A stretch of DNA of 41,441 bases from a virus, in IMG/VR virus record IMGVR_UViG_3300044800_000256, positions 1 through 41,441 of that record; one strand, 5' to 3'. A model generated the notes under the pieces. The model was not told where the DNA came from. It saw only the letters and a program-made list of their open reading frames with translations, and did no database searches. A program made the position numbers and the translations under genes. This document shows, in pieces, positions 15,476 to 21,488 of the stretch. Every line of letters begins with the position of its first letter. The first letter of the stretch is position 1.

Positions 15476-15789
15476 TGACAGAGCTGGAAGAACGATTTGT
15501 GGCAGCATTTGAACAGATTGCAGAAGCACTGGCAGGTATAGATGACACGCAAAAAAGACAATTCGCCAAACAATGGCCAGAACCAGGGAAAAAACGGGAA
15601 GCGGTTATCACTCGTGTCCCAACCGAAGAAGACCTCATCCGCGAAGAACAGGGAGCAAGCGACGAACCGATTGAAGAATGGATCGGACTCAGGGAAAGAG
15701 AATTCATTGAACGTCAGGCAGGTTCCGCGACTACTGAAGAAAGAGAATCGGGTGGCGGAAGCTTTGAAACGCCTGAAGGTAAATCCTGA
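15472..15789 (+). CDS. 105-aa acidic protein overlapping next gene
   Basis: The ATG-ATG start overlaps the preceding stop, so initiation is well supported. The protein begins MTELEERFVAAFEQIAEALA, a helix typical of short coiled-coil modules, then becomes Glu/Arg-rich (IREEQGASDEPIEEWIGLRE) and ends in a Gly/Ser tail. Its last 248 nt overlap the 267-aa frame in the +1 register. One of the two overlapping parts is probably not translated as written, or the region is truly dual-coding. Confidence 0.5.
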   Translation: MMTELEERFVAAFEQIAEALAGIDDTQKRQFAKQWPEPGKKREAVITRVPTEEDLIREEQGASDEPIEEWIGLREREFIERQAGSATTEERESGGGSFETPEGKS

Positions 15790-16345
15790 AAAGGTTGCGG
15801 CAGCTCCGCAGATTACGCCTCTCTTCAAAAATGCTGAAGGTGGTTTGAAAGGCGTTCTCAATGCAATGCGCTTTTCGGCACAGGATGAAGTGATTGCAGC
15901 GTTTCTTAAAAAGTACGATTCAATCCCCGAAGGAGACCGGCAAAGAGTTCCCTGGGAAGCCGTAGCGATTGCCGCGAGGTTGGACATTCGGCAGTTGACG
16001 GGATCAATTCTGTTTGCAATGCAAGCCGCCTCCGCCAGCATGGTCAAAGTGATTGCGCTCTCTTCTCATCCATTGATCACCAAAGCCCGCATTACGTATG
16101 GCCAATTGCCTGGTGGTGACAAGGACAGAAATGCGATTGATACAGCGCTCGGTTTTCTGCCATCACCCAAGGGACCAACATTTATCGGCAAGGCAGTCTT
16201 TGGATCAACTGGCACCAGGGAGAAAGAAGAATCGGAACCGAACGCTGTCTTTGGTGAGGACGATGATTTGGATGATCTTTTTCCGTTAGCAAGTTCCATG
16301 CAGGAAAAGTTGGTACCGATACGGCAGAGACTGCTGGAGAAATAA
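15542..16345 (+). CDS. 267-aa (or shorter) basic-to-acidic hypothetical
   Basis: From ATG 15542 (AGGT 5-6 nt upstream) the frame codes 267 aa; an in-frame GTG at 15752 would give about 197 aa and avoid most of the overlap with the preceding gene. The part after residue 71 is convincingly protein-like: VAEALKRLKVNPEKVAAAPQ, helical DEVIAAFLKKYDSIPEGD, IAARLDIRQLTGSILFAMQA, and an acidic tail near EDDDLDDLF. The N-terminal 70 residues are low-complexity basic. Family not recognised. Confidence 0.55.
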   Translation: MTRKKDNSPNNGQNQGKNGKRLSLVSQPKKTSSAKNREQATNRLKNGSDSGKENSLNVRQVPRLLKKENRVAEALKRLKVNPEKVAAAPQITPLFKNAEGGLKGVLNAMRFSAQDEVIAAFLKKYDSIPEGDRQRVPWEAVAIAARLDIRQLTGSILFAMQAASASMVKVIALSSHPLITKARITYGQLPGGDKDRNAIDTALGFLPSPKGPTFIGKAVFGSTGTREKEESEPNAVFGEDDDLDDLFPLASSMQEKLVPIRQRLLEK

Positions 16346-16350
16346 TCTGA

Positions 16351-17187
16351 ATGAAACACATTGTCTGTTTCAGCGGAGGTAAAGATTCAACGGCTCTGAT
16401 TCTCTGGGCAAGAGAAAATCTGTCGGAATTTACGACTGTGTTTTGCGATACTGGCTGGGAACATCCAATTACCTATGCCTACGTTGAAGAGATCAATCAA
16501 ACGGTTTTGAATGGCGCTCTTGTCACACTTAAGAGCGAAAAGTATTCCGATGGCTTTGTACAACTAATCACTGACCGAAAAATGATTCCCGGTGTGCATT
16601 CGCGGTTTTGCACTCAGGAATTGAAAATTTTTCCGCTGCATCGCTATTTTGAATCTCTGGATGACGAGGTGACCAGTTATCAGGGTATTCGTGCCGATGA
16701 ATCCTATTCCAGATCCAGGTTGAGCGAGACGGAATGGCTTAATGATGCAGGTGGCTACTGGATCAAACGGCCTCTGTTGCACTGGTCTGCAAAACAATGT
16801 TTCGCTATGATGGCGAAGTACAATATCCATCCAAATCCACTTTATCTTATGGGAGCAACGAGAGTTGGCTGTTGGCCTTGCATCATGACCGGTTTGGGAG
16901 AATTGAAACGTGCACTCGGCTTCTTTCCCGAGCTGAAAACCCGTTTGATTGAACTGGAGAACCATGCCAACGAAGCTGCGAACGATCCAGAAAATTATCG
17001 CACATGGTTTCGGTCCGACAAGATTCCATCGCGCTTCTGTTCAAAATCCGTTATCACCAAAGACGGTCGTACGGTTCCCATTCCAACTTGCGCAGATGTT
17101 TTTCGCTATATAGAAAGTGTTGACGAGGATCAGATTCCACTGTTTCCGGCCCGTTCCTGTATGTCGGTCTACAATCTCTGCGAATGA
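16351..17187 (+). CDS. PAPS reductase-like PP-loop protein
   Basis: This 278-aa protein has a PP-loop ATP-binding motif SGGKDSTALILWA at residues 7-19, then VFCDTGWEHP, the second core strand of adenine-nucleotide alpha-hydrolases of the PAPS reductase family. A later GCWPCIMTG (CxxC) and RFCTQELK provide cysteines seen in the phage/DndC-like branch, which may hold an iron-sulfur cluster. Phage members of this superfamily are common and of uncertain function; sulfur chemistry for DNA or RNA modification is a possibility. GGAG lies upstream of ATG 16351. Confidence 0.75.
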   Translation: MKHIVCFSGGKDSTALILWARENLSEFTTVFCDTGWEHPITYAYVEEINQTVLNGALVTLKSEKYSDGFVQLITDRKMIPGVHSRFCTQELKIFPLHRYFESLDDEVTSYQGIRADESYSRSRLSETEWLNDAGGYWIKRPLLHWSAKQCFAMMAKYNIHPNPLYLMGATRVGCWPCIMTGLGELKRALGFFPELKTRLIELENHANEAANDPENYRTWFRSDKIPSRFCSKSVITKDGRTVPIPTCADVFRYIESVDEDQIPLFPARSCMSVYNLCE

Positions 17188-17497: not shown

Positions 17498-20400
17498 ATG
17501 TATAGCGAACGGATTGTATTACGCAATCTGGACGAATTCGCAGCCCGCGAAGGCTGGATGCCCGTTTACCATTCTCTGGAACAGGTGCAGGAATTCAAGC
17601 AGTACATTGATTCTCTGGTTAAGATCGAGAGCAACTCCCGGTCTTCTTATGTCACGTTGCAACGTCCCATCACGCAGAAACGTCAAAAGGAAATCTGGCG
17701 CTGGATCGAGAACGAGCAGGCACTTTGTGGCTTGGACTCCGGTTATTTTGAAAGTCGCTATGCCTGGGTCTGCGACGAAAAAGGCCAGATCTTTAAATTC
17801 CAAAATCGATTGTCCCAGAAAATCTTTGATGGAGTTATTGCTGGCTTTGACGAAAAGCAGGTCTCCATCGAACTGCTGATTATCAAGGCGCGACAGGTTG
17901 GCGTCACAACAAAAACTGCGCTTAAATTTCTTCATCGTCTGCTCTTCGTTCCGCATACTCAGGCCGTGATGGCTTCCGTGCAATCAGATAAGTCGGAATT
18001 GATCGGACGCATTCTGGACACAGCCTATAATCGCTGCCCCTGGTGGCTGGTGCCGCGTCGTCTGCCAAAAGGTGCCTATGACAACGGTTCGGTTCTCTCT
18101 ATTCAATCTGGTATGCAGGCAACCGGCATTGCACAGGGATGGACGCCAACGTGCCTGGTACCGGGTACACCTGTACGCGTTGCTAATGGTGGTGTAAAAG
18201 CCATTGAAGATCTTGTGCTTGGCGACCGGGTTCTGACCCATGATGGTCGATTGGCAGCAGTAAAGTGTTCCTTTGAAACCTCGCGTCATGGTGAACCAAC
18301 ACGAATACTTAAACTGTGGGGATGCTATCTGCCGCTTGAAACAACTCTCGACCATCGTGTTTGGACTCCTGACGGTTGGTGCGAAGCAGAAGATTTAGGC
18401 GTAGGCGATTTTGTGCGTTATCCAGTCCGTGAAATCCGCGCTGAAAACGATGGGGAACCATTACAAAAAATGCTGCGCGGAAAGATTGATGCAGCGCATG
18501 CGATTGAATTTGAACTAACGTATTCGCCAGCAGTTGCCTATCTTGCCGGGCTTTATCTTGCTGAAGGATCATGCCATGAAAGCGGAATAGGAAAACTCAA
18601 CAAAAAGCCATATTTGTCGGAAGTAACTTTCACCGTGCATCGTCGTGAAGCTGCACGTACTGAAACAGCAATCAGAGCAGTGTTAGGCGAAGACCAGCAT
18701 GTACACACAAAAAACCACGGTGAAAACGGTTCACAGGTGTGCGTTTCCTGCGCATGGTTGGCACGCTGGTTAGCAGGAAACTTTGGTCGTAAATACGACA
18801 AGCATGTACCGGATTGGATTTGGACAGTGGGCCGCGACTTTTGCCTTTATCTTTTGAAAGGCTATCTCGATGGCGATGGCCATTGCGAAAAAAACTCAAA
18901 TCACGTCATTGCTCCATGTATCTGCGAGGCTATCACACTTCAGATGCGCGATCTGGTAGCTTCATTGGGCTTTGGCTGGGCTTCTATCTACCACCAGGCA
19001 GCTATGCAATCACCATGGGGTGGTAAAAAGCGCGAAACCTGGAAACTTGTAATGGTGGGGATGTGTGGCTATCGCTATCGAATGGCATTCAATCTTGAAC
19101 ATATTCCATCCCAAGAAAAAGCTCGTCACTGGCATTACAGCGAAGATGGATCAGCTATTGATGTAAAGATTGAAAAAGTTGATGAAGGATTTAGCGAATC
19201 GTTCTATGACGTGGAAGTGGATGATGTAGCGCATTCTTTCACAACATTGCAGTGCTCTGTCCATAACTGTATTCATGTATCGGAGCTGGCGGATATTCCC
19301 AAGCCGGAAAAGGTAATTGAAGAAGGTCTGTTGCGCGCCACGCACTCATCGCGCAATCTGTTCATGGTCTTTGAGGGAACGGGAGGCGGCAATACCGGTT
19401 GGCTCGCAAATACCTGGCGGTCGGCAAAGGCTGATTGGCCGAAAGGACAATCCCGGCTGTGTCCGGTCTTTATTCCCTGGGCAATGGTCCCGGATCTGTA
19501 TCCGGAACCAGACTGGGTGCGTAAATTTCCTGTGCCTGCTGAATTTATGAGGAAGCGGCAGGAAGTAACACGGAAGCATGTACAGCGTTGCGAACTCTAC
19601 ATCCGCAATACTACCTATCTGGCCAACGTAGTGGGAGCAGATTGGCGGATGCCGATTGAACAGCAATGGTTCTGGGAATTCAACTATCTTCAGGCTTGCA
19701 AAAATCACACACAAAAAATCTGGTTAGCACAGATGGCTGCCGACGACTTTGAAGCTCTGACGGGAGTTCACGACAGCGTTTTTGACCTTGAAACAATTCA
19801 GGAAATTGAGAACCATGTTTATGAAGTGGAAAGCGATAATAAAGAAAGAAAGAAACCGGTTCAGGCGTATGCGATTACCGGCGATTCCATTGATGACGGC
19901 TTTGAGCCGGATGATTCAATTATCGACTATGACAAAGACCGCATTCGGATTCTTTGGAATTCAGATCGCGGTCAGCAATACAAATGGGTGCTGATTCCAC
20001 TTTTGCCGGTCAACGAAGAAATCGAGACGGAGACCTTTGACAAGTTTCTGGTGTACGAAGAACCCAAAGCCGGTTATAGCTACAGTTGCGGGATCGACAC
20101 GGCTGATGGACTTGGCAAGGAAGATGAAGACAGAACCTGTGTATCAATGACACGGAATCGATTTGGCGATGAATTTGATTATCAAGTTGCCGAGTTGACA
20201 TCAAACCGAATCAACTCTGCGCAGATTGTAGGATTTGCGGCTTGCATGGCAGCCTGGTATGGAGAAAATACACAGGATTCGCGCGGCGTGAAATTTTGCG
20301 TGGAACAAATTGGTCGGCCCGGTGATACCTGCCAGCATCAACTGAAGTTGATGGGATTCCATTGGCATCATGTTCCACGGCGTTATGACAGCAAAAAAAT

Positions 20401-20764
20401 CAAAGACGATTCAGGAAAAAAACAAGGCTGGTATTCCAATGTGTGGAGCGTGCCCATTTTGATGACGCGCTTTACGGAAGCAGTTAATGGTGGCTGGTAT
20501 CGACCGTCATCGAAATGGTTGATTGAGGAATTGAAGACGCTGGAACGTCATGCGGCGGCTGGCAGAATATCCAAAATGGAACATCGCAGTGGACAGCATG
20601 ATGATCGCGTACGTGCTGCAGCACAATCGTTTTTTACTGCACATGATTTTGATATTCTTGCGGACAGGGCACAAAAGCGGTACGCTTTGCCACAAGAAAA
20701 AAATCCGCCGCTGATTATGAAATCATGTTCCGTGAATGAGGTTTCTGTTGGAGGAATGAATTGA
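17498..20764 (+). CDS. terL: terminase large subunit with in-frame intein
   Basis: The 1088-aa precursor has the terminase ATPase: Walker A-like KARQVGVTTKT (residues 130-140) and, after the intein, IHVSELADI (Walker B-like) and MVFEGTGGG (coupling motif). The nuclease domain includes YSCGIDTADGLGKEDEDRTC and SGQHDDRVRAAAQSF, which supply conserved Asp residues. Residues 219-590 are an intein, so the mature protein is about 716 aa. The start ATG 17498 follows GGAGATCA. It drives DNA packaging through the portal encoded downstream. Confidence 0.9.
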   Translation: MYSERIVLRNLDEFAAREGWMPVYHSLEQVQEFKQYIDSLVKIESNSRSSYVTLQRPITQKRQKEIWRWIENEQALCGLDSGYFESRYAWVCDEKGQIFKFQNRLSQKIFDGVIAGFDEKQVSIELLIIKARQVGVTTKTALKFLHRLLFVPHTQAVMASVQSDKSELIGRILDTAYNRCPWWLVPRRLPKGAYDNGSVLSIQSGMQATGIAQGWTPTCLVPGTPVRVANGGVKAIEDLVLGDRVLTHDGRLAAVKCSFETSRHGEPTRILKLWGCYLPLETTLDHRVWTPDGWCEAEDLGVGDFVRYPVREIRAENDGEPLQKMLRGKIDAAHAIEFELTYSPAVAYLAGLYLAEGSCHESGIGKLNKKPYLSEVTFTVHRREAARTETAIRAVLGEDQHVHTKNHGENGSQVCVSCAWLARWLAGNFGRKYDKHVPDWIWTVGRDFCLYLLKGYLDGDGHCEKNSNHVIAPCICEAITLQMRDLVASLGFGWASIYHQAAMQSPWGGKKRETWKLVMVGMCGYRYRMAFNLEHIPSQEKARHWHYSEDGSAIDVKIEKVDEGFSESFYDVEVDDVAHSFTTLQCSVHNCIHVSELADIPKPEKVIEEGLLRATHSSRNLFMVFEGTGGGNTGWLANTWRSAKADWPKGQSRLCPVFIPWAMVPDLYPEPDWVRKFPVPAEFMRKRQEVTRKHVQRCELYIRNTTYLANVVGADWRMPIEQQWFWEFNYLQACKNHTQKIWLAQMAADDFEALTGVHDSVFDLETIQEIENHVYEVESDNKERKKPVQAYAITGDSIDDGFEPDDSIIDYDKDRIRILWNSDRGQQYKWVLIPLLPVNEEIETETFDKFLVYEEPKAGYSYSCGIDTADGLGKEDEDRTCVSMTRNRFGDEFDYQVAELTSNRINSAQIVGFAACMAAWYGENTQDSRGVKFCVEQIGRPGDTCQHQLKLMGFHWHHVPRRYDSKKIKDDSGKKQGWYSNVWSVPILMTRFTEAVNGGWYRPSSKWLIEELKTLERHAAAGRISKMEHRSGQHDDRVRAAAQSFFTAHDFDILADRAQKRYALPQEKNPPLIMKSCSVNEVSVGGMN
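18152..19267 (+). mobile_element. LAGLIDADG intein inside terminase
   Basis: The 372-aa insert begins with Cys (CLVPGTPVRVANGGVKAIED, block A), has a T-x2-H type block B (ETTLDHRVWTPDG), two LAGLIDADG-type helices (LAGLYLAEGS and LLKGYLDGDGH), block F FYDVEVDDVAHSFTT, and ends in SVHN, followed by Cys as the +1 extein residue. All residues needed for class 1 splicing are visible (C1, block B T/H, terminal H-N, C+1). The insertion point is just before the Walker B-like segment, a conserved site typical of inteins. Both homing motifs keep the acidic residues, so the endonuclease may be active. Confidence 0.92.
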
Positions 20765-21150
20765 ATGCGCAGATGACAAAAAAGATTGTTTATTGGTACG
20801 ACGGAACAACGGGGGAGATCCGTATGGGACTTCCCGAACGCTATCCGGCTCCCTATGGATTTGAAAAGATTGTTTGTAACTCTGCGCACGAGGCGGAAGT
20901 ATGGTCAGAACGCATGCGTAAGCAGGAAACAGTCAAGATTCAGATGGAAGATGAGCAGCGGGAAATGATTGAAGGTCCGATCCGCGCCAATCTGCGTAGC
21001 CATATTCTTCATCAGATGACGAATGCCAGAAACAATTTGAATCGGGAATTTCTGCGTCGTCATCTGGAGTCGTACGACAAACGACCGGACAGAACGAAGA
21101 TGAACAGAACCAGCTATCTTCACAATGAAGGATATGAACAAGGACATTGA
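20761..21150 (+). CDS. 129-aa hypothetical protein after terminase
   Basis: The frame starts with TTG 20761, 5 nt after GGAGG and overlapping the terL stop; an ATG at 20773 is an alternative. The product begins with KKIVYWYDGTTGEIRMGLPE, a strand-rich segment with PERYPAPYGFEKIVC, then a long basic helix (SHILHQMTNARNNLNREFLR). The pattern is seen in phage proteins near terminase and portal, but no function is known. It overlaps the next frame's upstream region by 4 nt. Confidence 0.6.
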   Translation: MNAQMTKKIVYWYDGTTGEIRMGLPERYPAPYGFEKIVCNSAHEAEVWSERMRKQETVKIQMEDEQREMIEGPIRANLRSHILHQMTNARNNLNREFLRRHLESYDKRPDRTKMNRTSYLHNEGYEQGH

Positions 21151-21161
21151 ACGGGGAAACG

Positions 21162-21488
21162 ATGAATAGACGTGGATTTTTAAAAATATTCGGTGTTGGT
21201 ACTGCATCGCTTGCTGTACCAGCTACTGCATATGCAGCGTCGACAATCTCTAAAAACAAGACTATCGATCCCGTTTTGTTGGAACGTGTTTGTGATGGTG
21301 GAAGATCGCATATGACTGCGGAAGAATGGCAACGTTATGATGAAGATTTTCCATCGCATTACCGTGGATGTGGAACACGGTTTCGCTGGTATCTTGGCAC
21401 AAAGTGCATGTGCCCAACATGCATGCGCGAGTATCTATATACTTTCGAACAATTAAAAAATAAGGAGTTTTTTGTCAGTATTGAATAA
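21162..21488 (+). CDS. Tat-signal small zinc protein
   Basis: GGGG lies 7-8 nt before ATG 21162. The 108-aa product starts MNRRGFLKIFGVGTASLAVP, a near-perfect twin-arginine signal (R-R-x-F-L-K plus a weakly hydrophobic stretch and ATAYA-type cleavage site). The mature part carries CGTRFRWYLGTKCMCPTCMREY, a C...C-x-C-x2-C metal site. A Tat-exported protein between terminase and portal is unusual. The Tat pathway exports folded, often cofactor-loaded proteins. Function unknown. Confidence 0.6.
   Translation: MNRRGFLKIFGVGTASLAVPATAYAASTISKNKTIDPVLLERVCDGGRSHMTAEEWQRYDEDFPSHYRGCGTRFRWYLGTKCMCPTCMREYLYTFEQLKNKEFFVSIE

Follow-up and report, generated by a model that had tools for sequence, protein, structure and literature searches.

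A class 1 intein, very probably mobile and with a LAGLIDADG homing endonuclease, at the Walker B site of a divergent large terminase from a phage

The window that we analyzed is an entire virus record of 41,441 bases from IMG/VR (IMGVR_UViG_3300044800_000256). On its plus strand, an open reading frame at 17498–20764 encodes 1,088 amino acids and stays open, in frame, through an insert of 372 codons (codons 219–590; 18152–19267, + strand). Ahead of the insert, the N-extein (17498–18151, +; amino acids 1–218) covers the ATPase domain of a large terminase subunit as far as the Walker B strand (match to phrog_5989, terminase large subunit, 1e-10). It includes the segment ARQVGVTT (17888–17911, +; amino acids 131–138), which we take to be Walker A-like; some relatives have inteins in or near this segment. 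The C-extein (19268–20764, +; 498 amino acids and a stop) holds the remainder of the ATPase domain and the nuclease domain. It starts with CIHVSE (19268–19285, +), presumably the Walker B strand, whose first residue is the Cys+1 of the insert and whose serine and glutamate are invariant in 17 intein-free terminases.

No Pfam terminase model reached its cut-off (none matched the window protein or the intein-free relative L004, and Terminase_6N achieved 0.079 at best, in one of 17 relatives), so the name of the host protein required a separate test. All 17 intein-free relatives are hit by PHROG terminase models, and the predicted structure of the L004 terminase matches T4 gp17 (E = 1.2e-18), the G20c nuclease (TMt = 0.72), and the P74-26 terminase. 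This model, whose confidence is moderate (pLDDT 73.8 and pTM 0.50, with about 60–67 around the insertion site), places a strand at 219–223, where the CIHVSE segment falls. The predicted fold joins an ATPase to an RNase H-like nuclease, as in TerL, which identifies the host protein, as modeled, as a phage large terminase subunit. This terminase is a divergent one. Among phage records, just those of the Tunturiibacter phages Tunturi_1 and Tunturi_2 come near the C-extein (29% identity). Tunturiibacter is an acidobacterium, and the likeness hints at an acidobacterial host. When bacterial genomes were scanned for a host, with the intein-free terminase as the query, 0 of 33 candidates were confirmed; with the intein as the query, there were three partial matches in MAGs, all of them weak (26%–28%).

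Directly upstream of the terminase lies a PAPS-reductase-like gene (16351–17187; PF01507, 5.3e-27). Near the terminases of some relatives there are terminase-like paralogues (L027:6472–7731, L029:147–1448, L006:3–770, L026:6503–7225, and L044:5512–6456); some are ATPase-only and have a Walker B that is altered, such as YVTGVD, and others are nuclease-only, behind a TAT-like leader. Two open reading frames in the window resemble parts of these paralogues: the one at 21147–21488 has a TAT-like leader (MNRRGFLKIFGVG...) of the nuclease-only kind, without the nuclease part, and the one at 15542–16345 has a C-terminal tail, DDLDDLFPLASSMQEKL, that resembles the tail of the ATPase-only kind.

The insert runs from Cys1 (codon 219) to a final asparagine (codon 590), and residues, alignment, model fold, and profiles all point to a class 1 intein of 372 amino acids with a LAGLIDADG homing endonuclease. 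(We name its blocks A, B, F, and G by what we take to be the standard intein nomenclature.) Block A comprises Cys1 and CLVPGTPVRVANG (18152–18190, +). Block B is TLDH (18344–18355, +; T65 and H68), block F is FYDVEVDDVAHSFTT (19202–19246, +; D353 and H361), and block G ends in His371-Asn372 (19262–19267, +). The first LAGLIDADG motif is LAGLYLAEG (18542–18568, +; residues 131–139), with E138 as its acidic residue, and the second is LLKGYLDGDG (18851–18880, +; residues 234–243; PF14528 match), with D242. Across nine aligned inteins with 24%–96% identity, C1, H68, E138, D242, D353, H361, and N372 are invariant (9/9), and T65 is invariant across a smaller alignment of six. To judge from these residues (Cys1, TxxH, His-Asn, and Cys+1), the insert should splice as a class 1 intein. 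The intein sits directly after T218 and before the residue that opens the Walker B strand (T/CIHVSE). The original prediction, which had an intein with all of these splicing residues just before a Walker B-like segment, was exact to the base in its coordinates; more exactly, the insertion falls right where the Walker B strand begins.

Profiles and structure prediction agree with this assignment. At E ≤ 0.1, Hint_2 matches all nine of the aligned inteins and LAGLIDADG_3 matches eight of them. The window insert alone scores just below the cut-off for Hint_2 (6.7e-6; 27.0 bits versus 28.4) and just above it for LAGLIDADG_3 (9.7e-5; 23.0 bits versus 22.5). An AlphaFold model of the intein, built from nine natural inteins, has a pLDDT of 86.7 and a pTM of 0.87. 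Its best matches in the PDB are endonuclease-bearing inteins, namely PI-SceI, TliVMA, 2cw7 (PI-PkoII, in the naming of the profile match), and PI-PfuI (best E = 1.5e-15); next in rank is I-DmoI, which matches the endonuclease part. The model thus indicates a HINT fold. It also has helices at 126–138 and 228–242, so that both of the LAGLIDADG helices that had been predicted are present, and the modeled endonuclease has two motifs, both acidic residues, and the paired-helix fold.

We identified related loci (L002–L151, of which L074 is a phage record) by scanning with the C-extein, with the intein, and with two kinds of alignment, one of terminases that lack an intein and one of inteins. Together with the window's own locus, these gave 76 distinct terminase open reading frames. 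In a set of 74 terminases, 59 are empty and 15 have inteins, a split that is not a prevalence, as some of the loci were sought via their inteins. Relatives at 36%–82% identity lack the insert and have a junction gap of 0 nt, and since these terminases cross the predicted junction without a gap, the boundary of the intein is proved, as the proposed comparison with intein-free homologues was meant to establish. At the empty junction of L023, 35 of 40 bases are identical to the window's flanks, and at those of L018 and L006 the counts are 33 and 32 of 40. The +1 residue in the 59 empty rows is Cys in 29, Leu in 11, Ala in 8, Asn in 4, Ser in 2, Ile in 2, Arg in 2, and a gap in 1. The empty alleles by themselves already refute the idea that the insert is a domain of the terminase or an assembly artefact instead of an intein; the fold of the model also speaks against it, as do nine further viral contigs that have an intein at this very junction. 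We found no support for this idea, and homologues with the segment in a non-intein form were looked for and not found. We give it virtually no credence.

Of the nine other contigs with an intein at the window's site (hereafter, site W), seven have the full type (L002, L003, L014, L021, L031, L206, and L207) and two have a mini-intein (L013 and L056). L206 and L207 were found with a junction pattern, which also retrieved seven intein-bearing contigs that we already had. Identity to the window's intein is 96% for L002, 95% for L003, 82% for L014, and 77% for L021, which is partial; the diverged full inteins are at 50% (L206 and L207) and 43% (L031). The mini-inteins have 134 amino acids and the same splicing residues as the full inteins, without the endonuclease, and that of L013 is 41% identical to the window's intein over 88 residues.

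The inteins and the terminases at site W have different histories. The inteins of the window, L002, L003, and L014 form a clade (support 96/99). In the 41-row extein tree, the exteins reject that clade (lnL lower by 167.5; p-AU = 2e-91), and they also reject a clade of all ten terminases with a W intein (p-AU = 5.3e-6); the presence of a W intein requires at least five changes on this tree. The terminases nearest to that of L014 are those of L013 and L056, which both have the mini-intein. L014 and L013 have 705 of 713 extein residues in common, so that nearly identical exteins hold unlike inteins, a full one (82% identical to the window's) and a mini. Grouping L014 with the mini-inteins is rejected only marginally by the intein data (p-AU = 0.0455). 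Because the clade seen among the inteins is rejected by their terminases, the intein appears to have moved between phages, as had been suggested, and the disagreement has the look of a footprint of homing. The synonymous divergence between the window and L014 gave a candidate for a recent transfer, which we rejected: four-fold degenerate sites differ at 75 of 145 positions in the intein and 143 of 238 in the exteins, and as this difference is not significant (p = 0.11; p = 0.013 for the endonuclease part alone), DNA divergence by itself is no proof of recent transfer.

The intein might instead be able to splice and no longer be mobile, that is, a passenger that is inherited vertically and whose endonuclease is decayed or idle. 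The window, L002, and L003 all carry the intein, and within this group the nucleotide identity to the window is alike for the intein (0.926–0.935) and for the exteins (0.908–0.938), so intein and exteins look co-inherited there; also, the mini-intein of L013 and L056 shows that an endonuclease-free end-state exists. This reading conflicts with the incongruent histories of inteins and exteins and with the retention of both catalytic acids in 9 of 9 inteins. Furthermore, dN/dS between the window and L002, L003, and L014 is 0.075, 0.085, and 0.086 for the whole intein and 0.059, 0.067, and 0.080 for the endonuclease part (residues 131–320), which is as low as in the splicing part; by this measure, the endonuclease appears to be under purifying selection. 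We therefore consider a non-mobile passenger to be unlikely. In another pair of loci, L005 (empty) and L015 (with an intein four codons downstream of W), the first 929 bases beyond the junction differ at just four positions, three of which make up the +1 serine codon (AGC versus TCG). This would fit an exchange at the junction, with the left flank of L015 off the contig and faulty assembly possible.

On the whole, the Walker B site of this terminase very probably holds a class 1 intein that is mobile and carries a LAGLIDADG homing endonuclease. The precursor would be translated as a single chain. From its residues and fold, the intein would then excise itself by way of a thioester at Cys1, a branch to Cys+1, and cyclization of Asn372, and joining T218 to the next extein cysteine would restore the ATPase strand. 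In intein-free terminase alleles, the endonuclease would cut the DNA that encodes the conserved Walker B, after which the intein would be copied into the cut allele during repair. We infer that the unspliced terminase could not hydrolyze ATP, and, from the position of the insertion, packaging should need splicing.

Inteins in the ATPase domains of terminases, including in Walker B, are already known, with splicing and cleavage assayed: excerpts of Kelley et al. 2016 (PMC5050341) describe the mycobacteriophage terminase inteins TerL1-a to -e and TerL6-f, of which five of the five assayed spliced quickly and two cut the intein-free partner alleles. Like the window's intein, these interrupt the ATPase domain of a large terminase, and TerL1-e lies in the Walker B motif; unlike it, they are in another terminase family, and the site of TerL1-e is known to us only as "Walker B." The same excerpts propose regulatory inteins in general, and the original prediction had suggested that splicing could set the timing of packaging. 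An intein in a catalytic motif whose splicing responds to some cue could do so. This was not borne out, as near relatives do without the intein (59 of 74 relatives have none), and it is thus dispensable to them; no residue in the blocks by which the window's intein would splice is unusual, and the quick splicing of the mycobacteriophage inteins also argues against regulation. We consider a regulatory role to be very improbable.

In a tblastn search with the window's intein, no mycobacteriophage terminase intein was among the 10 phage records that matched. Eight of these are mycobacteriophage records that matched over residues 1–109 only, at about 28% (the matched protein is annotated as a portal protein in seven and as hypothetical in one). 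The only full-length match among the 10 was an intein in crAss-like phage cr131_1 (NC_055902; 24%, E = 3e-9), which is also in a terminase but in its C-terminal part, outside the ATPase part (GLYIGG/CDP). PI-SceI, TliVMA, and PI-PkoII similarly combine a Hint splicing domain with an inserted LAGLIDADG endonuclease, but they are in other host genes and are just 11%–17% identical in the fold matches. L150, from another terminase family, has a Walker B intein that is 28% identical to the window's over 372 residues. In contrast to the window's, it lies, in terms of the motif, four codons downstream, directly before Ser-Glu (FAMAHL/C...IKN/SEVG), with serine at +1 and lysine as the penultimate residue. 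Inteins of the window's terminase family were not recognized in our literature search, which covered few subscription papers. Overall, the intein in the window genuinely adds a new member to a kind of mobile element that is already known.

We also noticed a single intein family (CNPPEAPIWM...GYASKN/C, about 260 amino acids) in L152–L174. Its hosts are terminases, portal proteins, DNA polymerase, helicase, and glycosyltransferase, mostly with insertion after Tyr or Phe, and among 96 phage records it has kin at about 34% in phages of Gordonia and in mycobacteriophages. Its moves from gene to gene seem to be unusually frequent.

Including near relatives (L155 and L162, whose terminases are 58% and 37% identical to that of L004), the terminase family has inteins at seven sites, which we number by the residue of the L004 terminase after which the intein sits. 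Besides W (after 218), these are N1 (after 76; L036, L101, and L155), N3 (after 88; L162), N2 (after 91; L031 and L106), WA5 (after 127; L033 and L207), WA (after 136, within the Walker A segment; L147 with its copies), and W+4 (after 222; L017, L015, and L147). L031, L147, and L207 have two inteins at once. All seven sites are within the first 223 of 719 residues, in the ATPase part; the random expectation for this is 0.0002 if the sites are taken as independent, which they may not be. Compared with random positions in the whole protein, the sites are more conserved (p = 0.015), and compared with random positions of residues 60–300 they are not (p = 0.18). In an excerpt of PMC2814812, inteins at conserved sites are given as the general pattern.

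In each of three clusters of neighboring sites, the inteins are close relatives. W and W+4 are four codons apart, and the window's intein is 36%–37% identical to the full W+4 inteins of L017 and L147; the two sets are sister groups (99/98). W+4 inteins have Lys-Asn before Ser at their end (L017:3003–3011, L147:6141–6149) in place of His-Asn before Cys, and so depart at the penultimate residue. The WA5 and WA inteins, nine codons apart, are 57% identical. N1, N3, and N2 fall within 15 codons, and the N1 intein of L036 is 63% identical to the N2 intein of L106 versus 49% to the N1 intein of L101. The tree of whole inteins rejects a clade of the three N1 inteins (p-AU = 0.003); the splicing part by itself does not (p = 0.39), and the endonuclease part nearly does (p = 0.061). 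The mixing of N1 and N2 thus stems from the endonuclease part and not from the splicing part, and we rejected a move from N1 to N2 as proved; exchange of the endonuclease explains the data equally well. Besides homing to their own site, these inteins may move over by a few codons to a neighboring site of the ATPase core, or may exchange endonucleases with inteins there, an interpretation that we hold tentatively and with more doubt than confidence. It is possible that W and W+4 were instead invaded independently by related inteins.

If true, a shift of site or a trade of endonucleases would conflict with the view that inteins at the same site are nearest kin and that moves to new sites are very rare. 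One paper describes movement to a new site as apparently very difficult and likely very rare, with allelic inteins usually the nearest relatives (PMC1635734), and in another, Prp8 inteins group by site (PMC6805012). As an intein, that of the window is unremarkable. Its terminase family, however, forms a natural series of unusual completeness, with empty, full, endonuclease-free, double, and neighboring-site alleles of one gene, some of them in nearly identical phages. Because the family offers this series, both the homing cycle and the change of site are testable with natural pairs of alleles.
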